Of a stretch of DNA of 20,070 nucleotides, positions 4,016 to 16,224 are shown piece by piece. The number at the start of each line of letters is the position of its first letter. The stretch's first letter is position 1. Source of the stretch: Ignavibacteriaceae bacterium (GTDB lineage: Bacteria; Bacteroidota; Ignavibacteria; Ignavibacteriales; Ignavibacteriaceae); assembly GCA_026193755.1 (NCBI GenBank), contig JAPHUI010000092.1, positions 1-20,070 on the forward strand, read 5' to 3'. Below the pieces are notes generated by a model, which made no database searches, was not told where the DNA came from, and saw nothing but the letters and a program-made list of their open reading frames with translations. The position numbers and the translations under genes were made by a program.

Positions 4016-5146
4016 TTGAAGATTAACTCTCTTCTCAAATCCGGTACTGATAAACAGCAACGCTTTGATTTTGTCGATCAGTTCAGGGGACTGATAATTA
4101 TCTTAATGCTGGTTGACCACTGTTCTTATTATCTTAATTCAACCTGGGAGTTTCTTGATCCTTTGGATCCGCTTTTCGCAAGCTGGGGACAGGTAGTGCT
4201 CAGATATGTAAGTTATTTATGTGCTCCCGGTTTTCTGCTTATAAATGGTGCTATGGTATGGTGGTTTTATTATCGAAGAAAGAATAAAGGTCTCAACAAC
4301 TGGTCAATCCGTAAAGAACTAATTCAACGTGGCTTCTTTCTTATTCTTCTGCAAATGACATGGGTGAATTCATCCTGGAGTGGATTCAACAGATTCGATC
4401 CATTTCATCTGGGTATTATTGCTTGTATCGGCTTTTCAATGATTTTCCAGTCGTTTATTGTGAACTGGCGTTGGGAATTACAACTTGCAGTTGCCGTAAT
4501 TATTTTACTTCTTCATCCAATACTTATAAAAATTCCTTATAACCCTGGTGATAATTTACCAACTGTTCTAATGCAGACTTTTATAGACGCCGGTGATTTC
4601 AACAAGTATCCTGTAATTCCATGGTTTGCTGTTGCCCTGCTGGGTTCTGTAATGGCACATGGTTGGTTGAAAGCATGGGATAGTGATAAAAAAAGAATTT
4701 ACTGGGGAACGATAATTGGAGCTTGTGCCATAATCGTTTCCATTTTAATCAGAATGCTGAGGGGCTACGGAAATATTTTTCCATTCTCTGATTTTGGTTC
4801 TTATTCATTTTTCTTCGATCAAAAGTATTCGCCGAGTTTATACTTTAATCTTTGGTTCTTTGGATGGTCCGTCCTGGTAATTACCCTATTTATAGCAATC
4901 AGTAAATTCTTCCCAAAAGTTTTTCTGATATTCGATATCACGGGAAAGACAGCGCTATTCTTTTATTGCATACACATAGCAATTCTTGGAATCTTCTCGA
5001 AAAGAATCGGAATCTATTATCACCAGGGTGAAATTACAGAAACTCTCATTGGTGTTGTAATTATGATGCTAATTATGGTTCCGCTATCAAAGTGGTTCTT
5101 TAAATTTAAGAGCCGCAGTAGTAACCCTATAATTCGCATGATATGA
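4016..5146 (+). CDS. Multi-pass membrane acyltransferase-like protein (DUF1624 / HGSNAT-type)
   Basis: A 376-residue protein with roughly nine or ten hydrophobic segments. Residues 17-40 contain Asp21, Arg24-Gly25 and His35 in a DxxRG...LMxxxH pattern. This is the signature of DUF1624 proteins related to heparan-alpha-glucosaminide N-acetyltransferase, which move acyl groups across the membrane to sugars. APGFLLINGA at about 70-79 also fits. The acceptor here is unknown. No ATG exists before codon 31, inside the conserved motif, and a stop codon precedes the frame at 4010-4012, so TTG at 4016 is the best start; no strong ribosome-binding site is visible. The next gene begins 10 bases after the stop, suggesting co-transcription. 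Other membrane acyltransferase families remain possible. Confidence 0.75.
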   Translation: MKINSLLKSGTDKQQRFDFVDQFRGLIIILMLVDHCSYYLNSTWEFLDPLDPLFASWGQVVLRYVSYLCAPGFLLINGAMVWWFYYRRKNKGLNNWSIRKELIQRGFFLILLQMTWVNSSWSGFNRFDPFHLGIIACIGFSMIFQSFIVNWRWELQLAVAVIILLLHPILIKIPYNPGDNLPTVLMQTFIDAGDFNKYPVIPWFAVALLGSVMAHGWLKAWDSDKKRIYWGTIIGACAIIVSILIRMLRGYGNIFPFSDFGSYSFFFDQKYSPSLYFNLWFFGWSVLVITLFIAISKFFPKVFLIFDITGKTALFFYCIHIAILGIFSKRIGIYYHQGEITETLIGVVIMMLIMVPLSKWFFKFKSRSSNPIIRMI

Positions 5147-5156
5147 TTTCAATAAG

Positions 5157-6434
5157 ATGATTGATAAAAAACTAATATTATTCCTGATCATTCTCCTGCA
5201 ATTATTTTTGACGGTTTGTTCCGATAGAGTTGAAACTCCTTCTGACGGGGAAAACTCAACAACAATATATCACTCAAAATCAGTTAACGGAATCGAAGCA
5301 TCAATTACTTTTTGTGAAAAGATAAAAAATCAAACCGGTGAGCCAGTCAACGAAGATACTATCTTTAATTTAAACGAAGATTCAAAAGTTTATTCAATTG
5401 TCAATTTAAAGAACAGAGAATTAAACACTGACAAAGATTTAATGTTTCACATTGATTGGCTGGATTCGACAGGGAACTCATTCTTCAAAAAAAGAATTGA
5501 TTTGACTACCAACGATTCATCTTCCACGTTAATGAGTTTAATTAATATTTCACCGGATAGAAGAGAGCCCGGTAAATATTCTCTTCGTGTTTATCTTTTT
5601 CGTGAATTGATTGCTGAAAAAAATTTTGAACTAGTTAACGCTGCTATAGAACCACAAGCTATTGTGAAAAACGAATTGATAGAAAAAGTTAAAGCGAATA
5701 TTACTTTATGTAAAGGCATTAGCAAAAAAACTAAAAAATTATTAGGAGTCGGAAATAAATTTGAGATAAAAGATAAAGGAAAAGTCTTAGCAGTAATTAA
5801 AATAGAAAATAAAGACAGTATTAATCATCCATTAACTTTTTATGCGGACTGGATAAGTCCCGATGGAAGTTCACTATATAGAAAAGAAGTAAATATTAAA
5901 TCGAATGAAGCATCATTTTCAAGTTCAATTTCAGCATCACCAAACAAACGCAAACCCGGTAAATACTGTTTACGAATTTATCTATTTGAAAAATTAATTG
6001 GTGAAAAAAGTTTTGGTTTAGTGAAGACTGAAAAACAAGGAAAAGCCGTTTCTGAAGTTAATTCCGAAAATTTTTCTGCAAGGATTATTTTCTGTGAGAA
6101 AATAAGTAAAAAGACCGGTTTACCGATTAATCCCGATTCAGTTTTTACTTTGAAAGATAAAAGAAAATTAAGGGCAGTAATTTACATTGAGAAATCAGAC
6201 ACGATCGTTAAAATTCAAAAGAGTTTTTTTATCAAATGGATAGGTTCGGATAATAATTCTTTCTACAAGAAAAAGGTTAGGTTTTCACCCGAAGATTCCA
6301 CATTAAAAATAATAAGCTCTATCTCGCTTTCACCACAGAAGAGGCTACCTGGTAATTACCTCCTTAAAGTTTATTATACCAAAGATTTAATCGGGGAGAA
6401 AAAATTCTTACTTAAAGAACAGGCTGAAAAATAA
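5157..6434 (+). CDS. Exported protein of three tandem copies of an unrecognised domain
   Basis: A 425-residue protein with a hydrophobic N-terminus ending in LFLTVC. Cys21 may be a lipidation site, although Val before the Cys is unusual, so an ordinary signal peptide is possible. The rest is three copies of one domain of about 110 residues (47-160, 179-289, 307-420). Each has a Cys near its start (53, 185, 313), a central Trp (101, 232, 361) and a C-terminal PGxYxLxxY block (Pro138, Pro267, Pro398). The alternating hydrophobic pattern suggests beta-sandwich folds. I recognise no family. The gene follows the acyltransferase-like gene by 10 bases and probably shares its transcript. It is Lys-rich and ends 10 bases before the stop of the convergent LVIVD gene. 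Confidence 0.8.
   Translation: MIDKKLILFLIILLQLFLTVCSDRVETPSDGENSTTIYHSKSVNGIEASITFCEKIKNQTGEPVNEDTIFNLNEDSKVYSIVNLKNRELNTDKDLMFHIDWLDSTGNSFFKKRIDLTTNDSSSTLMSLINISPDRREPGKYSLRVYLFRELIAEKNFELVNAAIEPQAIVKNELIEKVKANITLCKGISKKTKKLLGVGNKFEIKDKGKVLAVIKIENKDSINHPLTFYADWISPDGSSLYRKEVNIKSNEASFSSSISASPNKRKPGKYCLRIYLFEKLIGEKSFGLVKTEKQGKAVSEVNSENFSARIIFCEKISKKTGLPINPDSVFTLKDKRKLRAVIYIEKSDTIVKIQKSFFIKWIGSDNNSFYKKKVRFSPEDSTLKIISSISLSPQKRLPGNYLLKVYYTKDLIGEKKFLLKEQAEK
5295..6416 (+). repeat. Triplicated domain within the 425-residue exported protein
   Basis: The three protein-level repeats map to about 5295-5636, 5691-6023 and 6075-6416. Spacing from Cys to Trp is 48, 47 and 48 residues and from Trp to Pro-Gly is 37, 35 and 37 residues. 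The copies share the ends EPGKYSLRVYLF, KPGKYCLRIYLF and LPGNYLLKVYYT. The DNA copies have diverged, so this is an old internal duplication, not a recent tandem repeat. Confidence 0.85.
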
Positions 6435-6444
6435 TTTTTTACAT

Positions 6445-7446
6445 TTACGGAGTTGAAACTACTATCAATCCCTCTTTCTCATCTGCAACATATATATATT
6501 TATCATCAGCGGTTAATCCCAATGCGTATTCCGTCTCAACAGTACCGATTAGAAAAGGTGAGGTTACATTCGATACATCTATAATTTGCAACCCCCTTAA
6601 TTCAGTTGCAACATAAACTTTATTGTTTTGATAAAATACCTCTTTAGCATAACCACCAGTACTAAAACTACCTACTATTTTTACATCGTTTGTATCTGAA
6701 TAGTCAGCAATCACTAGACCTCCTGTACCACAAGCGACAAATGCAATCGGAAGATTTGGGTGGATGATTACATCTTCAGCAAATCCGGGAGTATCAAGTG
6801 TACCGAGCAGTGGATATATGTTATACCCATCCTGGAAATCAGAAATATCAAAAATTGATAGTCCAACTTCTCCACTAGCAATAAGCAAGTAATTACTATC
6901 GGCGGAAGTACATACGGCTTGTCCAAAGCCAGGGATAAAGAATGTTTGTCTAATATCAGGGTGTGCAGGATCAACTATTTTCGAAATGTTAACACCTTCT
7001 TCACTAACCGCAGTAAAAAGAAAATCTCCCATTATATGAAAATTTTTTGCGGGCGAAATAGCACGATTTTCCGGAACAATTAATGGTTTAAATGGATCTT
7101 TAACATTTACTATATTTACACCGAATGTGCCTGTAGCAAGATAAATTATGCTATCCTTCTTTGCTATCTTATACCCATATCCTCTCAAACCGTAAGTCAA
7201 TTCCGATAGAAATCTTGGCTGATTAGGATTTGAAATTGATACTGTTATTAATCCGGCCTGCCCCTGGCATATAAAAGCAACCGTATCTTTAATCACTATG
7301 TCCTGAGCATATCCTGAAGTTGCGTACTTACTTACAATTTTATATCCGCCATCTCCTCCGATAATAGACTCAGGATCGTTTGGTGTGCCGCAGCTCATCA
7401 AAAAAATAATAATTAATAATGAAGTTAATAGATAAAACTTTTTCAT
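6445..7446 (-). CDS. LVIVD-repeat lipoprotein (beta-propeller-like)
   Basis: A 333-residue predicted lipoprotein: the signal peptide ends in FLMSC with Cys19 as the lipid site. The mature part consists of about six repeats of roughly 43 residues with the form GxAxDVxxxxxxxYVAxGxxGLxIxDVSxP, the LVIVD repeat expected to fold as a beta-propeller. Good copies include GGLVIADYSD and RGLQIIDVSN. Such proteins usually sit on the cell surface or in the periplasm and bind partners; no enzymatic residues are apparent. It is last in the cluster that starts with pgsB, 35 bases after the barrel gene, so it is a candidate surface component of that system. It converges on the plus-strand gene with a 10-base gap and no clear terminator. 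Confidence 0.85.
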   Translation of the reverse strand: MKKFYLLTSLLIIIFLMSCGTPNDPESIIGGDGGYKIVSKYATSGYAQDIVIKDTVAFICQGQAGLITVSISNPNQPRFLSELTYGLRGYGYKIAKKDSIIYLATGTFGVNIVNVKDPFKPLIVPENRAISPAKNFHIMGDFLFTAVSEEGVNISKIVDPAHPDIRQTFFIPGFGQAVCTSADSNYLLIASGEVGLSIFDISDFQDGYNIYPLLGTLDTPGFAEDVIIHPNLPIAFVACGTGGLVIADYSDTNDVKIVGSFSTGGYAKEVFYQNNKVYVATELRGLQIIDVSNVTSPFLIGTVETEYALGLTADDKYIYVADEKEGLIVVSTP

Positions 7447-7481
7447 ACCAATTCTCTTAATAAATGTTTGATTTATAATAA

Positions 7482-8624
7482 TTAAAAACTAAATGAATAT
7501 TTAAACCTTACTCCAATACGGTACTGAGTGTAATCCTTTTCATTGGAAACATATTCCCTGTTTGCCTCAGCGGAAGTACTGGATTCTCTTTTCATCCATT
7601 GATAAAAAGCAGTAAGTGAAAAATTTTTATATACATCCCAGTTGTAATTAACAAAGACTCGATAATTATAATCATATCTTCCTGCATGAAGCGGATCCAG
7701 TTCAAGGAAATGATCAGTTGTATAAAATGCTCGCTGGTATTGTGCATCAATACTAATTTCATTTTTCAGTTTGAAAATTTTTGGCATCTGATAATCAAAA
7801 CCAACCGCGTATACATGTTCATAGTTGCTGGCATCGGAATCATCAGATAATTCTTTAACCTCACCGGGTTCATCATAACCTTTTGCATCAGAAGTTATAT
7901 AGTAATACGCAAAATTTACATCCAGTTTTTTTGTTAGCGACTGATAGATTCTCAGACCATATAAAAAATCGTTGCTGTCGTATTCTGTATTGGACGGGTT
8001 TAGAAAATATCTCATATACGAAAAGTAAGCCCGCGCACGCGTTGTTTTCCAGCTGAATGTATGGTGAAGCCAGACACTGTAATCATCCTTAGAAAATTCA
8101 TAAGGTTGAAAAGTTTCGGGAACATATCCATAATATTTTACCCAGTCCTCATCGCGGAAATGACGTACATAGAATTTCGGGATATATGAATAAGAAACAT
8201 AAAATGATGTGGACTTTGATAAGTACTGACGTAAGAAAATATCATAAGTAAACCAGCTTTTAATTGAATTATAAGAGTAAGCATCCGAATCAAAGCCAGC
8301 TCCAAGAATAGTTTTCAACTTGCCGATTATTTGGTTAGAATAAACCAGACCAAATGAATAACCGAATGTAAGATCATCAATACTGTGAATATGAAACCTT
8401 CCTTCGTCCTCACCGTTTTTAAATCTTTCAATATATTTATTTGAATACTTTAAGATATTGCTGTCATAATAAGGACTTAATGAAAGTCTAACCGACCATT
8501 TATCTTTTGCTTTAGCAGGATTTTCACCAGCAACAATCTTGCTGTTCATAAAAAACAGAAGAGAGAAAATACAATAGAATGAAATGTAAAACGGCAAAAA
8601 ACTTCTGTAACAGTGTTTGTACAT
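7482..8624 (-). CDS. Predicted outer-membrane beta-barrel protein in the poly-gamma-glutamate cluster
   Basis: A 380-residue protein with a long hydrophobic leader (about residues 8-32). The mature part is full of alternating amphipathic strands rich in Tyr, Phe and Trp, such as FTYDIFLRQYL, FYVSYSYIPKFYV and YNYRVFVNYNW. It ends YRIGVRFKYSFSF, a C-terminal aromatic strand typical of outer-membrane barrels. Acidic, Asp/Ser-rich loops alternate with the strands. No named family is recognisable. It lies 9 bases downstream of the two-repeat exported protein and 35 bases before the LVIVD lipoprotein, inside the pgsBC gene string. By position it could be an outer-membrane exit or anchor for the polymer; this is inference. 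An internal Met at about residue 26 falls inside the leader and is unlikely to be the start. Confidence 0.8.
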   Translation of the reverse strand: MYKHCYRSFLPFYISFYCIFSLLFFMNSKIVAGENPAKAKDKWSVRLSLSPYYDSNILKYSNKYIERFKNGEDEGRFHIHSIDDLTFGYSFGLVYSNQIIGKLKTILGAGFDSDAYSYNSIKSWFTYDIFLRQYLSKSTSFYVSYSYIPKFYVRHFRDEDWVKYYGYVPETFQPYEFSKDDYSVWLHHTFSWKTTRARAYFSYMRYFLNPSNTEYDSNDFLYGLRIYQSLTKKLDVNFAYYYITSDAKGYDEPGEVKELSDDSDASNYEHVYAVGFDYQMPKIFKLKNEISIDAQYQRAFYTTDHFLELDPLHAGRYDYNYRVFVNYNWDVYKNFSLTAFYQWMKRESSTSAEANREYVSNEKDYTQYRIGVRFKYSFSF

Positions 8625-8633
8625 TTTAGCGGG

Positions 8634-9551
8634 TTACTCTTTTAGTTTAACATCATTCTTAGGAAAGAGAATTCTTGCCAGAATTGAATTCTTGTCTTTG
8701 TCCAACGGTCTAATTTGATATAGATGCGTTCCTCCGGGAACAGAAATAACGATTTCGTTCGCTTTTCCGGGAGTTTTTCCACATCCCTTTTTATAAACAG
8801 TTACATCAGAACGGACACTACTCAGCTGATATGTGTTCATCACCGCTTTATCTTCTTTCACCTGTATTCTGTAAATTATTCTGCCCTTCATCTGGTAATG
8901 ATTCTCTATTCGGTTTAAAACTCTTAATGTTGTTGGCCCGGTAACCTTAACTCTTAGTGGTTTAGTTTCGGTATAACGATAGTAAGTATAGACCTCTTCG
9001 TTGGTTACAAGTGAGACGGGTTCATTTGGAAACAGCGGAGACATTGAAACCCATTTAATTTTCTTCTCTTTAGTTTCAGTAAATAAAAATCTTGAGTCGA
9101 TTAGTGGTTTTTCATTGCCGCGCCAAAATTCGATAGTATTTTCGCCTCGCCCCAATTCTATTGAAAAAATTCCTGCTCGACCGGGAAAACCCAATTTTGA
9201 ATCTTTGAACGACGCTTTTTTATCCCGATAAATATTATTAAAGTTTACTTTATTCTTTTGCTCTCCGTTTATACTATAGTATACAGTGTAGTCCAAAGAA
9301 TTTTGAGACTGTATTCTTTCCCTCGTTAGAACTTTTAATGTGCCTGGACCTTTAACGCTTACAATCGTTGAATGATTATAGTTTAAAGGATAATATGTTC
9401 TGGCTTTTCCCCAAATAATAATCATGGTTTTTGAAGCTGCATTTTTTGGTTTGATAACTTTGGTATTTGAACCAGCCAACGTCAGAAACGAAAATGCAAT
9501 GAAAATAAATACTATAAATAACGATTTCATATTTTCCCTGAAAATTTTCAT
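8634..9551 (-). CDS. Exported protein with two copies of an unrecognised domain, poly-gamma-glutamate cluster
   Basis: A 305-residue protein with a signal peptide (about 9-27, ending TLAG); Met8 is an alternative start. Two related domains follow, at about 51-158 and 187-297. They share GPGTLKVLTR (68-77) and GPTTLRVLNR (205-214), PGRAGIFSIEL (123-133) and PGKANEIVISV (261-271), and SRFLF (153-157) and ARILF (292-296). The pattern suggests periplasmic beta-rich modules with no obvious catalytic residues. It starts 12 bases after the gamma-glutamate system gene and ends 9 bases before the barrel gene, so it is very likely co-transcribed. I know no function for the domain; a periplasmic linker or polymer-binding role is only a guess from position. 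Confidence 0.8.
   Translation of the reverse strand: MKIFRENMKSLFIVFIFIAFSFLTLAGSNTKVIKPKNAASKTMIIIWGKARTYYPLNYNHSTIVSVKGPGTLKVLTRERIQSQNSLDYTVYYSINGEQKNKVNFNNIYRDKKASFKDSKLGFPGRAGIFSIELGRGENTIEFWRGNEKPLIDSRFLFTETKEKKIKWVSMSPLFPNEPVSLVTNEEVYTYYRYTETKPLRVKVTGPTTLRVLNRIENHYQMKGRIIYRIQVKEDKAVMNTYQLSSVRSDVTVYKKGCGKTPGKANEIVISVPGGTHLYQIRPLDKDKNSILARILFPKNDVKLKE
8661..9401 (-). repeat. Duplicated domain within the 305-residue exported protein
   Basis: The two protein-level copies map to about 9078-9401 and 8661-8993. From the GPxTLxVL motif to the PG motif is 55 and 56 residues, and from PG to the closing RxLF strand is 30 and 31 residues. The matched spacing supports an ancient internal duplication. 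Confidence 0.78.
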
Positions 9552-9563
9552 GCTGCCAAATTT

Positions 9564-10697
9564 TTAAATTTCATCCAAATTAGTTTTTCTTTGTATAGGA
9601 ATTTGTTCGGTGCCAAGACGATGTCTTTTCCTCTCCATAAAAAATACTAGGGCGATGGCAACAGTTAAAAATAATGTTACTGCTGAAGTAAGAATGACAC
9701 TATATCTTTTTTGAATAAAGACCTCACCTTCACCTGGCATTGGAAGCGGTGTAGGACTGATTGGTAAACCATACTTTTTTGCAAGCTGATTTATATTTAA
9801 TAAATGAATAACAGGAATGTTCTCTTCTGCCATCTTTATCAACACTCCTCTCATTGGATAATTCATCATCGGAAGAGACATCGTCAGACCGCTTGGTACG
9901 AACTGTGAATTTTCGGTAGAACCCATACTTGCAATTCCACCGCCAACATTTATGAACGCCTTGATTTTACTTTTCTTTCTATGCTGATCATAAATTTCCA
10001 TTCGTCTTTGAATGCTTTTCTCAAGGTACTCTTCATTGATAAAATCAACCTTGTTTCTTTCGATTGCATCCACTATTAACTGTCTTCCTTCGGGGCTAAG
10101 ACCTCTGCCCCTGTCAAGTCCACCACCAATTGATGCAGCAACAGATGTGTTCTTAAAAATTCTCGCATCATAAAGTAATTTTTCCATATCAAGCCACGTA
10201 TAGTATGGATCGTTGGCTCCCCAGTTAGAAGCACCAACAGAAGTAATTATTATTGGCTTTAAATCCAAAGTCTGAATTGCAGCATGCACGGCTATGTTTA
10301 AACCCGGTAAAGAACCTGTAAATGAAATGGCTACGACATCGTTTTTTTCCAGTCCGGCTTTCTTTAACATCTCAACCAAAACCGCAGCAAAATTCGGATT
10401 GGTTGCTGTGAGCTTGGCTTCAATGTTCCCTCTATCTGTAGTAATCGGTGTGATATCCTGCCCAATTAATGCCGTTTCATTTGGATCATTTATTGCATCA
10501 ATAAAAACACCTTTTTGAAGTCGAAATTCCTTTAAATAATCAATAGCCGTTTTGGCAAGGTTGGCCGCTTCGAGTTTCTGGTCGTACCATTTAAGTTTTA
10601 CATCTTCTTTCTGAAATTCGACAGCGAGAAAAGCCATTAAAGCAAGTAATGCTAAAACACTTAATACTATTTTTGAGCCGGCACTAAAATTATTCAA
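9564..10697 (-). CDS. pgsW: Poly-gamma-glutamate system protein (TIGR04332-type)
   Basis: A 377-residue protein with transmembrane segments near both ends (about 9-27 and 332-353) and a large soluble domain between them containing ISFTGSLPGLNIAV, SVGASNWGANDP and INVGGGIASMGS. I recognise it as the family named poly-gamma-glutamate system protein that accompanies pgsB and pgsC; its biochemical role is not established as far as I know, and I am less sure of the symbol than of the family. With both ends in the membrane, the middle domain probably faces the periplasm. The start is TTG at 10697-10695 with an AGG seven bases upstream; a stop-free in-frame ATT is the only other nearby option. It lies 16 bases after pgsC. 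Confidence 0.85.
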   Translation of the reverse strand: MNNFSAGSKIVLSVLALLALMAFLAVEFQKEDVKLKWYDQKLEAANLAKTAIDYLKEFRLQKGVFIDAINDPNETALIGQDITPITTDRGNIEAKLTATNPNFAAVLVEMLKKAGLEKNDVVAISFTGSLPGLNIAVHAAIQTLDLKPIIITSVGASNWGANDPYYTWLDMEKLLYDARIFKNTSVAASIGGGLDRGRGLSPEGRQLIVDAIERNKVDFINEEYLEKSIQRRMEIYDQHRKKSKIKAFINVGGGIASMGSTENSQFVPSGLTMSLPMMNYPMRGVLIKMAEENIPVIHLLNINQLAKKYGLPISPTPLPMPGEGEVFIQKRYSVILTSAVTLFLTVAIALVFFMERKRHRLGTEQIPIQRKTNLDEI

Positions 10698-10713
10698 CCA
10701 AATACCTGGTAAT

Positions 10714-11166
10714 TTATGTTGGAATTAATTCGCCGTTAAATATTATTATAACAATTAATCTTACAAGCACAGCAGCAATGAACAAAACACAAAGCGTTCT
10801 GTAAATACCTTGCTTGCCAAACCAATGTGCAATTAAACCCGGAACAACCCATCCGACTGCTTGCAACTGAATTGTGCTGGAAGTTAAGTCAAGCAATAAA
10901 AATTGACGGGAAAAATTTGCAAGCAGACATCCGACCAGAAGACATAATACCATTTGTCTTCTGCCATAAAGAAAAGTATAGTTACCTAAAATTTTTATAA
11001 TAAGGTAAGTTGCAAGGCTGACAAATATAATTCCTGCAAGTCTGTCCGGCTGAGATAGGTGCAAGGCAATATAACCCGGCACAACTATTCCACCAGCGGC
11101 CAAACCGAAAACTTCGTAGGACAACAAACTGAACGTTAAGCCCAAAGTAATAGCAAGCTCAATCAT
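10714..11166 (-). CDS. pgsC: Poly-gamma-glutamate biosynthesis membrane protein PgsC/CapC
   Basis: A 150-residue integral membrane protein, nearly the same length as Bacillus PgsC/CapC (about 149), with four or five hydrophobic segments. Diagnostic stretches are SYEVFGLAAGGIVVPGYIAL near the N-terminus, YGRRQMVLCLLVGCLL in the middle and VGWVVPGLIAHWF towards the end. PgsC partners PgsB in the membrane complex that polymerises glutamate through gamma linkages. Its ATG overlaps the pgsB stop in a 4-base ATGA junction (11163-11166), pointing to translational coupling and a shared stoichiometry. The assignment is strong because the two genes are adjacent and both recognisable. Confidence 0.93.
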   Translation of the reverse strand: MIELAITLGLTFSLLSYEVFGLAAGGIVVPGYIALHLSQPDRLAGIIFVSLATYLIIKILGNYTFLYGRRQMVLCLLVGCLLANFSRQFLLLDLTSSTIQLQAVGWVVPGLIAHWFGKQGIYRTLCVLFIAAVLVRLIVIIIFNGELIPT

Positions 11167-12344
11167 ACGTGACTCCGGTTTTCGAAATATTCAGCGACGT
11201 CCGCACCCATAGCACCCATGTTCCCTATGGCAAGAACAGTTGATTCTTTTTCTGTGCAGGCTAAGATCGCTTCAAAGACGGCCTCGGGTTCAGTCCATCC
11301 CAGGTTCAAAATTTTATTTCGTTTTACTCCGTTGCTAGTTGCCAGGTTTTCCACAACTTCCGACGATTCTCCTACTAATATCAAATAGTCATATTCATCA
11401 TTAAATTGCTTTCCTACCATTCCTGTTAACTGTCTTGCCCTATCCAATCTATCTTTTCTTGAGTTAAGCAAAATTATCTTGAATTCTTTTAAACCGATTT
11501 CATCTTTAATCTGCTGCCAGATCATTAAAGTTGATTGTGGATCATTTGCAGCAAATGCATTATAAAATTTAATACTCTTACCGAAAACATTAACTTTAGA
11601 AAGCTTCAATACACCAGCATCGGGAATTGCTTTATACATGCCTCTAAGAGCAATATTCCTTTCGATTCCAAGGTGTTCACAAACCGAAAGTGCAAGTGCA
11701 ACGTTTTCTTTATGCTCCAGATAATTAAAGCTGTTCATTTCATCATCGGTTACCGAGTCACTATTAGCCAAATGAAGAACCGTATTTTGTTTTTTCGAAA
11801 TTTTTTCAAGTTGATTTAAAGTTTGATTTTCCGTGGTAAAAAAATGTTGATTTCGTGGGATAGTCTTTCCGAGGACATTGGCAATCTCAGGTAATGTGTA
11901 ACCCATTACTTCTACATGATCCAGCCTTACATTAGTAATCAAACCGATGGTCGAATGCATCATCTTGGTTTCAGTTATCCATTGGTATTGCGGCTGGATT
12001 GCCATGCATTCCATTACAATTGCCTTGGCTTTTCTTTGTGCTGCGAGTTTAATAATGGATAGCTGTTCAATAATATTCGGATCTGTCTTTCTATAAATAT
12101 CAACTTCGCAACCATCCTCAAGAACCAGACGAGGATAAGTTCCGGTAACCTTTGTAATCGTTTTTATACCACCCTCTCTTAATGCTGCCCCGATCAGCCT
12201 TGTAACACTAGATTTTCCTCTTGTTCCATTTACATGGATCCTGATCGGAATAGACAGGATTCTTTTTTGATGGAGTGCAAACTCAACTATGCCGTATACA
12301 GACACGATTAGAAAGAGAATCAACAGAACCGTAAAAACGTACAT
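11163..12344 (-). CDS. pgsB: Poly-gamma-glutamate synthase PgsB/CapB (ATP-dependent ligase)
   Basis: The catalytic ligase of gamma-polyglutamate synthesis, related to the Mur ligases; it uses ATP to join glutamate through the gamma-carboxyl. At 393 residues it matches the family length. An N-terminal membrane anchor (about 3-23) is followed by the P-loop HVNGTRGKSS (P-loop 40-46). Further family motifs are MECMAIQP (111-118), TNVRLDHVEVMG (137-148), NAFAANDPQST (262-272), NSRKDR (294-299) and IGNMGAMG (373-380). It is first in a six-gene string with gaps of at most 35 bases. The 79-base gap upstream has a TATAAT-like hexamer on the minus strand (12377-12382) but no good partner box, so read-through from the C25 gene is also possible. 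No clear ribosome-binding site is seen. Confidence 0.95.
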   Translation of the reverse strand: MYVFTVLLILFLIVSVYGIVEFALHQKRILSIPIRIHVNGTRGKSSVTRLIGAALREGGIKTITKVTGTYPRLVLEDGCEVDIYRKTDPNIIEQLSIIKLAAQRKAKAIVMECMAIQPQYQWITETKMMHSTIGLITNVRLDHVEVMGYTLPEIANVLGKTIPRNQHFFTTENQTLNQLEKISKKQNTVLHLANSDSVTDDEMNSFNYLEHKENVALALSVCEHLGIERNIALRGMYKAIPDAGVLKLSKVNVFGKSIKFYNAFAANDPQSTLMIWQQIKDEIGLKEFKIILLNSRKDRLDRARQLTGMVGKQFNDEYDYLILVGESSEVVENLATSNGVKRNKILNLGWTEPEAVFEAILACTEKESTVLAIGNMGAMGADVAEYFENRSHV

Positions 12345-12423: not shown

Positions 12424-15400
12424 TTATTTCAATAGAATCATCTTTTTAACCTGTATAAAGCTATTTGCCTGAAGCCTGTAGAAATATACTCCGGAACCAA
12501 CTTTACTTCCGAAATTATTCTTACCATCCCAGATAACTTCGTATCTACCCACAGATTTATTGCCTTCCTCTAATGTTCTTACCAGCATACCATTGATATC
12601 GTATATATTCAGCTTGACATATGCATCTTCGGGAACTGCAAACCTAATCCGTGTCTGCGGGTTAAACGGGTTCGGGTAATTTTGTTTTAAAACATAATCA
12701 GTCGGAAGACTTGTAATTTCGTTTTCTCCCTTTACCGATACTACAGTTGCACTATCGGTTGTAAATCTAATTGCAATTCCATTTATCAATACATTTGCAG
12801 TTGGATCATACAGTTCATTAAATAAATACAGCAAACCAATATCTTCAGTACTGTTTTCAATTCCCACTGTGCAACTTCCAGCTTCTTCAACTTCCTTGTA
12901 CTGAAATATTATTTCACCATCTCCAGTTTGCGTGATATAATAAGCTGGATCGTAAAGAATTATTTCAAAGGTTTCTTTAATTGTTATATCTGAGTGATGT
13001 GGTACCGTATCCCATTCAACAATGAATCTGTGATTTACAGGATCAGAATAATAATAAAGTTTTCCACCACCCTGTGGTCCTTCGGAAAAGAAATCATCCC
13101 AAAATACAGCAGTCATATTGTTTAGTGTATCTAAACAAGGTAAAGGACAGTTCAGGGATTTTGTCTGCGTTCCACTGCCGAAAGCGATCCAACCATCACC
13201 GCTGATTCTCACTTGGGAAAAATTATTTCCATAATACTTAAAGTAGTTAAATGGCAAATTTACTGTTTGCGTAAAATCGCTCAAACCGCCCGGTTTCGTT
13301 ATTTCTGTTCCTATTGAACTGATCTCAATCCAGTTGTATTCAGGATGCTGCTCCCAAAGAGTATCATAACTTGAATATGCGTAATAACCATAAGCATCTG
13401 GAGTTGGATCTGAAGCTATTGGCATAGCAACCGGTAATGTGATTGAATCTGTTTTTGAATAAGGATAAAAACCATTCTGTGTTGAAAGCATAAGTAAAAA
13501 GTCGGCGTTATATTGAACAGGACAGTTTCCACTAACTGATATTGTATAAGTATCGGTTTGGTTAATTGCATTGCTGTCTGGCAAAATGTTTCCAAATGTT
13601 GCCATAGAATCAACTATTGTCATATAAGGATCATTGGTTCTAATTATTCCTGTTACGTTTGGTGCAATGTCATCGCCTGTATTTAAAATTTTAAAAGTCA
13701 ACTTTGCTGTTTCACCCGGATCGAGTCTAAAGTTATGATGCAAGTTTCCTTCATCATCTACAAAAAACTCGCCGAATTTAAGTTGACAGCCATGGACTTC
13801 TTCATTAACTGTATAATCCCATGAAGACGTAGTGCTTGCAACGTGAAGTTGAAAATGAATTACATAACCGACAGGACATTCTGGTTTGATAAAAAACTTG
13901 AATGGTGAACCTGTTACTGTATCACCCGGTGCAATATCTCCAAAAGCCACCGAATCAACATTCATTTCAATGTAGTTCAAAGTGTCGGGCACCGAAAGTA
14001 TAGCATAAACACTGTTGGATGTAATAGTTCCCCAGTTTTTTAGTTTGAATGTTATCGAAGCGTTTTCATTTGGATTTATCATCCCGTCATCATTACCGTC
14101 AAGATCTGTAACTACAGGATTTCCGTATGTTGTAACATTCTCTGTTCCTATTGATACTATAATTGAATCTTCATAAGGAATAACATTACCGCCCGTCACG
14201 GTTAAATTCAGTGTGCCTTCCGAACTTGGTTCGATATCAAGAATGACAATACCAGTTTCACCAGTTTTACCAGTGGCATAAACACCATTGCCGGAAATAC
14301 ATACTCTTGCATTACGAACCGGCAAACCACTGGATGTGTTATTCACTTCAATTTCTACCTGATTGAATCCCACATAAATTTCGTTTGGATGAATTACAGT
14401 AACTGCTTCCGGTACATCTTTCCAAATATGCATACTTGGATCTCCAAGCGCGCAGTAAATCTTATAATGATACTCAACTTCAGAGGTATTACCGAATTGC
14501 TGGTACATATACAATTTCCCATTAAGAAGTGCCTCTCCCGGGCTGTCTATTCCCTCCTGGGGCATTCCGATTTCCTCCGGGAACATTCCAATATAAATAC
14601 CCTTATCAATCTGGTTATTGTAAGCAGTATGAGTATTTGAAGTTGGTCCCAGGAAGGCACAGGCACCTTTTGGCGGGTCTGTTAATGAACCCTTCTCAAT
14701 CCAAGTTTCGCCAAAACAATTTCCTTGGTCAAAAGCGGCTACACCGCATCCTATGCTCGTTACAAAAGTTAACTTATTAGCATTATTGATATTGTTGACG
14801 TAATTTGAATTAAAATAATAGCAGTTTGCATGCCATCCGTCATACCATCCCTCACCACGGTAATTGAGGAAACTTCTCCCATCGTTAATAGCTGCAACGA
14901 TATCATTTACATCATAAGTACATTGCCAATTACTCATCATTGTATCAACTGAAGTAAAATGTCCATTTACCAGCATTTGTTGTGCAGCAAACCGCTTTGT
15001 ATCAACCTGCGATTGATAAGCATTGTTTGAACAGACAGTAGCTTTCTTAAACCATTCGGGTTCTGAAGTGTATGGGTATTTTTCATATTTCAGAAACTTA
15101 TCAACCATAACCTGCAATATGTATTCACCGCCACCAGTAGCTCCATTGTAATTTGTGAATCTCCCGATCATCATCTCGGGGAAGTAATCATTTCCTTCGA
15201 GCTCAACGAAATAATCCTCATTAACAAAAGTCCATCCCCAACCTGTCCAATATTTTACCGGTGCGTTGCCTTCAGGTGAACCTTTATCCCCGATAATTAA
15301 AATATGCGTGGGAACATTTTCCCAGGAGTTATAGACACTCAAAATGTAATTTTTAATGATGTCAGGATCATTTTGATTTGCACCTATATCGCTGAATTTA

Positions 15401-16224
15401 GTGACGAAGATTTCTGTCCCGGATTTGTTTTTCCATTCAGCGTATGGTTGAAATTCATCTACATATATATCGTGCATAATACAAAGCATAATATCATGAC
15501 CCTCCTCCATTCCATTATATCTTCGTTGCAAAACCTCCTTATAATTAAAAATAAAATTACGATACAACTTGGCGAACGAAGGAGCTATTGGTTTTTGCAG
15601 AGTTGTTTTTCGATTTATTCCCAAACCTGCTTTATAATTTACCCTGATTGTGATTGAGGGAACTACCTGTAGTTCTTTTTTCACCGGAGAATACCTTATG
15701 GGAAAAATTGATACTCTTGCAATACGAAAATCTCTGAAGATGGCAGGGTCTTCAACTCCTGCAAAATTTTTCGGATAGATGTCAGACGATAAATATGCTT
15801 CCTGTTTTTCCACATATGGAGTCTCGGGTTTTCCTTCTTCCCAGCTTTCTCTCGCAGGTGCAATATTAATTCCTTCGAAAGTCTGTATAGGGCTTGATTC
15901 CAGAACTTCCACACTGACAGTACCTTGATCGGGTATAGCCAGTATTTTAGCGATGTATGGAATTTCAGGAAAACCAACTTCTCTTGTAATAGCTTCTGAA
16001 TCGAAACTTAAGGAGTGATAAGTTTTTCCATTCGCATTAAACTCGTTGATCTGAAAACCAGGCAGGTCAATTTTAATCGTTGTACCTGAAGCATCATCAC
16101 TGATGAGCTGGACAAAAGGTGCCGAACCTGCATTCGAATATTTATCTAGAGATACCCATTGGGCAAAACAAATCGAACTGATAAAAACAACAGCAGAAAA
16201 AATAAAAAGTATAGTCCTTTTCAT
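12424..16224 (-). CDS. Secreted C25 (gingipain-family) peptidase-like protein with type IX sorting domain
   Basis: A 1266-residue secreted protein. A signal peptide (1-21, cleaved after FA) precedes a C25 propeptide-like region (about 60-210) and a C25 caspase-fold domain (about 240-605). An Ig-like domain follows (about 608-690), then CARDB-like spacer domains, a beta-rich domain containing RISGDGWIAFGS and, from about 1175, a type A sorting domain with NYPNPFNP and the ending KKMILLK. That tail directs type IX secretion. The expected catalytic Cys is present (Cys493 in SIGCGV), but the usual Gly-His-Gly reads Gly-Glu-Gly (Glu458); a His lies 7 residues later (465). Activity is therefore uncertain. 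The GGGAG at 16233-16237, eight bases before the ATG, supports the start. It lies 79 bases upstream of pgsB on the same strand, with no evident functional link. Confidence 0.92.
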   Translation of the reverse strand: MKRTILFIFSAVVFISSICFAQWVSLDKYSNAGSAPFVQLISDDASGTTIKIDLPGFQINEFNANGKTYHSLSFDSEAITREVGFPEIPYIAKILAIPDQGTVSVEVLESSPIQTFEGINIAPARESWEEGKPETPYVEKQEAYLSSDIYPKNFAGVEDPAIFRDFRIARVSIFPIRYSPVKKELQVVPSITIRVNYKAGLGINRKTTLQKPIAPSFAKLYRNFIFNYKEVLQRRYNGMEEGHDIMLCIMHDIYVDEFQPYAEWKNKSGTEIFVTKFSDIGANQNDPDIIKNYILSVYNSWENVPTHILIIGDKGSPEGNAPVKYWTGWGWTFVNEDYFVELEGNDYFPEMMIGRFTNYNGATGGGEYILQVMVDKFLKYEKYPYTSEPEWFKKATVCSNNAYQSQVDTKRFAAQQMLVNGHFTSVDTMMSNWQCTYDVNDIVAAINDGRSFLNYRGEGWYDGWHANCYYFNSNYVNNINNANKLTFVTSIGCGVAAFDQGNCFGETWIEKGSLTDPPKGACAFLGPTSNTHTAYNNQIDKGIYIGMFPEEIGMPQEGIDSPGEALLNGKLYMYQQFGNTSEVEYHYKIYCALGDPSMHIWKDVPEAVTVIHPNEIYVGFNQVEIEVNNTSSGLPVRNARVCISGNGVYATGKTGETGIVILDIEPSSEGTLNLTVTGGNVIPYEDSIIVSIGTENVTTYGNPVVTDLDGNDDGMINPNENASITFKLKNWGTITSNSVYAILSVPDTLNYIEMNVDSVAFGDIAPGDTVTGSPFKFFIKPECPVGYVIHFQLHVASTTSSWDYTVNEEVHGCQLKFGEFFVDDEGNLHHNFRLDPGETAKLTFKILNTGDDIAPNVTGIIRTNDPYMTIVDSMATFGNILPDSNAINQTDTYTISVSGNCPVQYNADFLLMLSTQNGFYPYSKTDSITLPVAMPIASDPTPDAYGYYAYSSYDTLWEQHPEYNWIEISSIGTEITKPGGLSDFTQTVNLPFNYFKYYGNNFSQVRISGDGWIAFGSGTQTKSLNCPLPCLDTLNNMTAVFWDDFFSEGPQGGGKLYYYSDPVNHRFIVEWDTVPHHSDITIKETFEIILYDPAYYITQTGDGEIIFQYKEVEEAGSCTVGIENSTEDIGLLYLFNELYDPTANVLINGIAIRFTTDSATVVSVKGENEITSLPTDYVLKQNYPNPFNPQTRIRFAVPEDAYVKLNIYDINGMLVRTLEEGNKSVGRYEVIWDGKNNFGSKVGSGVYFYRLQANSFIQVKKMILLK

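Follow-up and report, generated by a model that had tools for sequence, protein, structure and literature searches.

We analyzed a 20,070-base stretch of DNA from an Ignavibacteriaceae bacterium (the window), i.e., one complete contig (C300) of a genome that is 84% complete and spread over 476 contigs, with a focus on a six-gene operon for poly-gamma-glutamate (PGA). This operon probably belongs to a diderm gamma-polyglutamate capsule locus with its own export path across the envelope, a reading that draws on gene fusions, predicted folds, protein charge, and strict co-occurrence with the synthase genes. Six minus-strand open reading frames (ORFs) make up the operon:

11163..12344, minus strand: pgsB (capB), Mur-ligase-like gamma-glutamate ligase (TIGR04012 at 427.8 bits, cut-off 222.7; PF08245 at 39 bits)
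10714..11166, minus strand: pgsC (capC), integral membrane partner (TIGR04011 at 115.9 bits, cut-off 96.45; PF14102 at 112.8 bits)
9564..10697, minus strand: member of TIGR04332 (340.1 bits, cut-off 100), a family that we take to be the one named PgsW
8634..9551, minus strand: two-repeat exported protein with a signal peptide and two tandem beta-sandwich domains, candidate periplasmic polymer carrier
7482..8624, minus strand: 14-stranded outer-membrane beta-barrel, candidate polymer pore (predicted model, predicted local distance difference test [pLDDT] score 92.5)
6445..7446, minus strand: LVIVD-repeat lipoprotein (PF08309 at 85.5 bits, lipobox-like LMSC), optional member

The coordinates and order of the six genes, the 4-base overlap between pgsB and pgsC, and the further gaps of 16, 12, 9, and 35 bases along the operon all agree with the original prediction made from the sequence of the window, as do the barrel and the lipoprotein. 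Conservation was evaluated across relatives selected on PgsW only, i.e., blind to genes 4–6: a PgsW alignment was scanned over one genome for each of 84,980 species, which yielded 234, and the best 80 were kept. Annotation relied on family models built first from the near relatives of the window and listed database homologues, and then widened with the 80 relatives' loci; locus counts are limited to loci with enough sequence around the gene tested. In 70 of 78 loci, the two-repeat gene comes after PgsW or is fused to it, and the barrel is found in 62 of 73, with median gaps between operon neighbors of −5.5 to 15 bases (taking the first start codon as the start). Since the same order recurs in relatives, the gene set is not a product of chance, and the co-occurrence with pgsBC on which the original prediction had staked its case is borne out. 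The loci are spread over Ignavibacteriota, Bacteroidota, Cloacimonadota, Fidelibacterota, WOR-3, Krumholzibacteriota, and others, and include one from Winogradskyella haliclonae CCM 8681 (L085), which has pgsBCW together with the two-repeat gene. The two-repeat gene is absent from eight loci: L091, L093, L099, and L105 (Myxococcota); L097 and L103 (Verrucomicrobiia); L102; and L098 (Clostridium tetanomorphum). At the barrel position, two Winogradskyella loci, both scored as lacking a barrel, encode a 384–394-residue protein with a weak profile match (hhalign E 2.3e-5, probability 76%, 82 columns), and in another locus a TonB-receptor-like barrel (PF14905; L141:4997-7540) fills the slot directly after the two-repeat gene.

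Neither the two-repeat protein nor the barrel matched any Pfam or NCBIfam family. The halves of the former align to each other as profiles (E = 2.6e-28), so the repeats that had been proposed are real, and its AlphaFold model (pLDDT 92.3) resembles CBM35/CBM6 and BcsB-like folds. The protein is strongly basic (net charge +26), and 68 of 74 two-repeat proteins are basic. Arg77, Arg214, Tyr53, and Tyr190 show no or almost no variation across the family. For the predicted barrel, the closest folds are CymA and OmpG, at 8–9% identity, and a comparison of its sequence with solved chains gave no match up to E = 1. Such folds, as predicted, would be appropriate for a protein that binds polymer in the periplasm and for a pore in the outer membrane, respectively. 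In addition, PgsW is fused to the two-repeat protein in five loci, all from one clade, and the two-repeat protein is fused to the barrel in one (L064); these fusions would link the inner to the outer membrane. Conservation, fusions, and folds therefore favor the earlier proposal of an exporter for these two proteins, with export itself inferred, while the third exported protein proved optional: of 59 loci with room for the LVIVD lipoprotein, 34 encode it.

Within the class of the window, a census of 294 genomes found pgsC above cut-off in 23. The two-repeat model gave 10 clear matches (E < 1e-60) and one weak one, and the barrel model 9 clear matches and one weak one; every clear match, whether two-repeat (10) or barrel (9), lies inside the pgsC locus of one of these 23 genomes, and none was found outside a pgsC locus in the 294 (hypergeometric probabilities of 1e-12 and 2e-11, respectively, with kinship ignored). 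This bears on the idea that the exported genes serve separate surface roles, such as adhesion or lipoprotein sorting, and are habitual neighbors kept together by operon inheritance only. The LVIVD, C25-family, acyltransferase, and repeat-lipoprotein genes of these loci (see below) do differ in presence and order, as this idea would have it, but the two-repeat protein and the barrel hold their position across several phyla, are sometimes fused, and have no clear counterpart away from pgsC in the census, which makes mere habit very improbable.

The remaining 13 pgsC genomes revealed a second module. In twelve of them, pgsBCW is accompanied by genes for DUF6305, AstE-like, and DctM-like proteins, and 8 of these twelve also have a nearby gamma-glutamyltranspeptidase (GGT) gene; the thirteenth (G305) is a 3-kb contig end. 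Hence, the PgsW loci of a single class split into two module types. This second module of DctM-like, AstE/AspA-like, DUF6305, and GGT genes, common to Ignavibacteria relatives and Clostridium tetanomorphum, is represented by L018, L019, L020, L021, L129, L130, L132, L134, L136, and L098, and the DUF6305 proteins are basic in 14 of 14 cases. Clostridium tetanomorphum, a Gram-positive monoderm, has DUF6305, AstE-like, DctM-like, and GGT genes with pgsBCW, and no two-repeat, barrel, or other export-module gene in the 21 kb around pgsBCW. No locus examined holds both full module sets, with DUF6305 looked for in these loci and not genome-wide. In a rapidly built maximum-likelihood tree with 103 PgsW sequences, module type tracks PgsW clades, with 5 changes against a mean of 23.0 when shuffled and none as low in 200 shuffles. 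All 79 export-module rows fall within one PgsW group of 88 (Shimodaira–Hasegawa-like approximate likelihood ratio test [SH-aLRT] 94), the other 9 rows being a clade of seven (Myxococcota, Verrucomicrobiota, and one more) and two contigs that end after pgsW.

These patterns also help to weigh the direction of transport. The barrel and the two-repeat protein could import polyglutamate fragments, so that the operon balances synthesis with re-use: CymA and OmpG are, we presume, sugar diffusion channels, and CBM-like domains presumably often bind ligands for import. However, a Pfam scan of 11 window proteins recognized no polyglutamate hydrolase or uptake transporter, two-repeat relatives are fused to PgsW on the synthase side, and it is the other module (DUF6305, AstE-like, DctM-like, and mostly GGT), shared with a monoderm, that looks more like processing or uptake. 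On balance, we consider import unlikely.

On the synthase side, hydropathy indicates one N-terminal hydrophobic helix in PgsB, four hydrophobic segments in PgsC, and two hydrophobic helices in PgsW (residues 10–28 and 334–352) on either side of a ~300-residue domain, which is probably periplasmic to judge from this layout. Conceivably, PgsBC add glutamate to another molecule, which the exported proteins then serve: the activity of PgsB is predicted here from its sequence, and its Mur-ligase relatives presumably differ in substrate. Yet PgsB exceeds its equivalog cut-off (222.7) by a wide margin, at 427.8 bits, PgsC is likewise above its own, and a report on Cloacimonadota, whose loci in this analysis include pgsBCW, the two-repeat gene, and the barrel, mentions PGA clumps made visible with 4′,6-diamidino-2-phenylindole (PGA-DAPI) staining (PMC13082233). 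A product other than polyglutamate is thus quite improbable. The original prediction had further recognized no capA or ggt in the window and supposed that the exported trio replaces PgsA/CapA and the release or anchoring enzymes. Searches of the whole genome for capA (PF09587) and ggt (PF01019), which did not extend to pgdS, gave no match within the window, but the genome encodes both, with CapA-domain matches on contigs C173 and C184 only and GGT matches on C371 and C367. Replacement by the trio was not upheld: PgsW is the more natural candidate stand-in for PgsA/CapA, even though it showed no profile similarity to the two CapA domains. No complete pgsBCA locus was found elsewhere, the 84% complete genome showing a single pgsC.

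CapA-domain proteins occur in 17 of 24 pgsC genomes tested. CapA is otherwise membrane-anchored, and several of the proteins seen here are large, at ~1,000 residues: one is encoded on C184 of the window genome (L025:6871-9891) and others at L147:3485-6487 and L148:9407-12427. In two relatives, L147 and L148, the large CapA protein lies next to the polyglutamate operon, and in the window genome it is unlinked to it. In G079 and G149, a ~1,000-residue CapA-domain protein follows the C25 gene, and the C184 protein of the window genome is 52–54% identical to it. The type IX-like tail of these proteins was judged from their C-terminal ends rather than by Pfam, and for C184 from its match to the C25 protein of the window.

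Beyond the six genes, three further window genes belong to recurrent neighborhoods:

12424..16224, minus strand: C25-family (gingipain-like) protein with a type IX tail (PF01364 at 176.9 bits, PF08126 at 79.5 bits, PF18962 at 28.0 bits, cut-off 27)
5157..6434, plus strand: three-repeat basic lipoprotein, convergent to the operon (41% identity over 284 amino acids to L030:15530-16399)
4016..5146, plus strand: HGSNAT-type transmembrane acyltransferase, convergent to the operon (PF07786 at 57.8 bits)

Relatives of the acyltransferase are found in 18 of the 80 loci and also in L143 and L144, where the gene precedes pgsB (77 bits, with a model built in this analysis); the enzyme could cap or modify the polymer. 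Three-repeat lipoprotein relatives occur in 13 of the 80 and, in Bacteroidales, in the same operon, after the acyltransferase. A C25 protein longer than 250 residues is encoded somewhere in 46 of 59 loci with room. The locus is accordingly larger than six genes, with the C25-like protein, the acyltransferase, and the repeat lipoprotein as recurrent neighbors, and the claim of an undescribed six-gene set needs amending in this respect. For the LVIVD lipoprotein, whose family we take to be a predicted beta-propeller, a lipobox pattern is seen in 29 of 37 relatives as called. In a genome of the same genus (G002), the LVIVD gene (L015:4631-5634) consists of two overlapping ORFs, which may reflect a broken gene or a sequencing error.

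The C25 protein (1,266 residues) lies upstream of pgsB across a 79-base gap. Where Bacteroidota loci have upstream sequence, a C25-like protein is almost always found next to pgsB, the exceptions being the two Winogradskyella loci. Taking the positions aligned with gingipain histidine and cysteine as the presumed C25 catalytic residues, the window protein retains Cys493 and has Glu458 in place of the histidine (GEG vs. GHG in gingipain R2). Across C25 proteins anywhere in the loci that cover the site, the histidine is replaced in 61 of 62 and the cysteine retained in 62 of 62 (L016 and L046 are one record and both counted; 3 further rows do not cover the site). A search of five genomes gave 23 C25 matches, of which 16 have the histidine, the three linked to pgs have Glu or Gln, one unlinked paralogue has Glu, and 3 could not be scored. 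An unlinked C25 pseudoprotease paralogue (L164; G002:C1:3611229-3612233) has the same Glu at this position. For type IX secretion itself, SprA_N was found in 5 of 6 genomes searched, including the same-genus G002, with no match in the 84% complete window genome.

The polymer could also be a surface anchor for type IX-secreted proteins rather than a free capsule, with the C25-like protein acting like the PorU sortase, presumably by joining such cargo to polyglutamate as is done with anionic lipopolysaccharide (A-LPS) in Porphyromonas. Several features fit: the position beside pgsB (the Pfam test for a type IX tail being confined to the window protein), the invariant cysteine, the type IX-tailed sortilin-like proteins at the C25 position beside pgsB in L139 and L140, the dockerin-tailed proteins after LVIVD in L076, and the CapA-domain protein with a type IX-like end that adjoins the operon in L147 and L148. 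Sortilin-like proteins lie upstream of pgsB in four genomes (G120, G155, G275, and G200), with a type IX tail above cut-off in two. However, the near-universal loss of the catalytic histidine speaks against it, the protein next to pgsB is not C25 in every locus, and the parallel with A-LPS is drawn at the level of abstracts. We regard such a surface-anchor role as improbable.

Several observations weigh against a dedicated export path. Promoter and terminator scans gave no excess over chance. CymA and OmpG are general or uptake channels and not known exporters, so that the fold alone gives no direction, and a terminal F or Y is seen in just 32 of 67 barrels as called, some of them truncated by contig ends. 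Exactly two helices were detected in only 37 of 75 PgsW proteins by a hydrophobicity scan that performs unevenly across the family, the charges beside the helices agree with an N-in, C-in arrangement in 33 of 71, and 6 of 74 two-repeat proteins are neutral or acidic. The lipoprotein is absent from 25 of 59 loci with room, and C25 from 13 of 59. Myxococcota and Verrucomicrobiota loci have pgsW without the export module, i.e., a diderm need not have one. Of 24 pgsC genomes examined for GGT, 23 encode it, which makes a GGT-type step elsewhere conceivable, and the split between modules is imperfect since L139 and L140 have the export module plus an upstream GGT gene.

Taken together, we still favor a capsule locus with its own export path, which could operate as follows. 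PgsB and PgsC would make the polymer and extrude it at the inner membrane, as is known for these families, with the two-helix anchored PgsW in the role of PgsA/CapA within that complex. In the periplasm, the basic protein with two beta-sandwich domains would take up the polyanion and pass it to the 14-strand barrel, through which it would be released across the outer membrane. At the outer face, the polymer would most likely be held or trimmed by the type IX-exported C25-like pseudoenzyme and, in loci that encode it, the LVIVD lipoprotein, which is the weakest step; the acyltransferase may modify the polymer. A broader extension, which we put forward tentatively and with more doubt than conviction, is a further class of diderm capsule export, in which a CBM-like relay in the periplasm (PgsW and the two-repeat protein) brings a poly-amino-acid from an amide-ligase synthase to a dedicated outer-membrane pore of 14 strands. 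Proteins secreted by the type IX route, namely a C25 pseudoprotease and, in certain species, a CapA with a type IX tail, would then keep the polymer on the cell surface. If true, the assembly of the capsule and type IX secretion would be parts of a single surface system across phyla of the Fibrobacteres–Chlorobi–Bacteroidetes (FCB) group. The locus offers concrete, testable candidates for the crossing of the outer membrane by polyglutamate, and since its carrier Winogradskyella haliclonae is a named strain, a gene-removal test is feasible.

In the open-licence literature, including the available parts of PMC5542703, PMC13082233, PMC8542988, and PMC3815933, we found no description of this gene set or of genes 4–6 in polyglutamate export, in line with the novelty first claimed for it. 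The CapsuleFinder PGA model was built on CapABCDE, and the available part of its text names no outer-membrane component (PMC5542703); the window locus contains CapB/PgsB and CapC/PgsC as defined in this model, and not CapA/PgsA, which is an accessory there. Likewise, PgsB and PgsC resemble the PgsBCA/CapBCA systems of Bacillus and Fusobacterium at the family level, whereas the window locus has PgsW instead of PgsA/CapA, followed by the two-repeat, barrel, and LVIVD genes. Nearer counterparts are found in Cloacimonadota, whose loci analyzed here, including that of Ca. Tenebribacter, have pgsBCW, the two-repeat gene, and the barrel. The excerpted accounts name CapB, CapC, and “CapA (PgsF)” in the Ca. 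Digestoria operon (PMC13082233), and CapBC with other, unnamed proteins in metagenome-assembled genomes (MAGs) of Ace Lake Cloacimonadota (PMC8542988); we infer that the third gene of the Ca. Digestoria operon is PgsW. The C25 protein shares PF01364, a propeptide, and a type IX tail with gingipains, and aligns with gingipain R2 apart from the altered histidine motif.

The predicted layout is that of the BcsA-BcsB-BcsC system for cellulose secretion, i.e., an inner-membrane synthase, a periplasmic CBM-like protein, and an outer-membrane barrel, and BcsB is among the fold matches of the two-repeat protein. The synthase differs, with a Mur-ligase-like amide ligase here vs. a processive glycosyltransferase in the Bcs, Alg, and Pel systems, as does the scaffold: no TPR match was detected, either among the six proteins of the operon (E up to 1) or in the C25 protein (E up to 0.01). 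Unlike that of Bcs, the barrel is a CymA/OmpG-like one of 14 strands in its predicted model, with no significant sequence relation to solved structures, and it has conserved residues of its own and a fixed place in the operon. As in Bcs, Alg, and Pel, however, a dedicated outer-membrane barrel is encoded together with the synthase.

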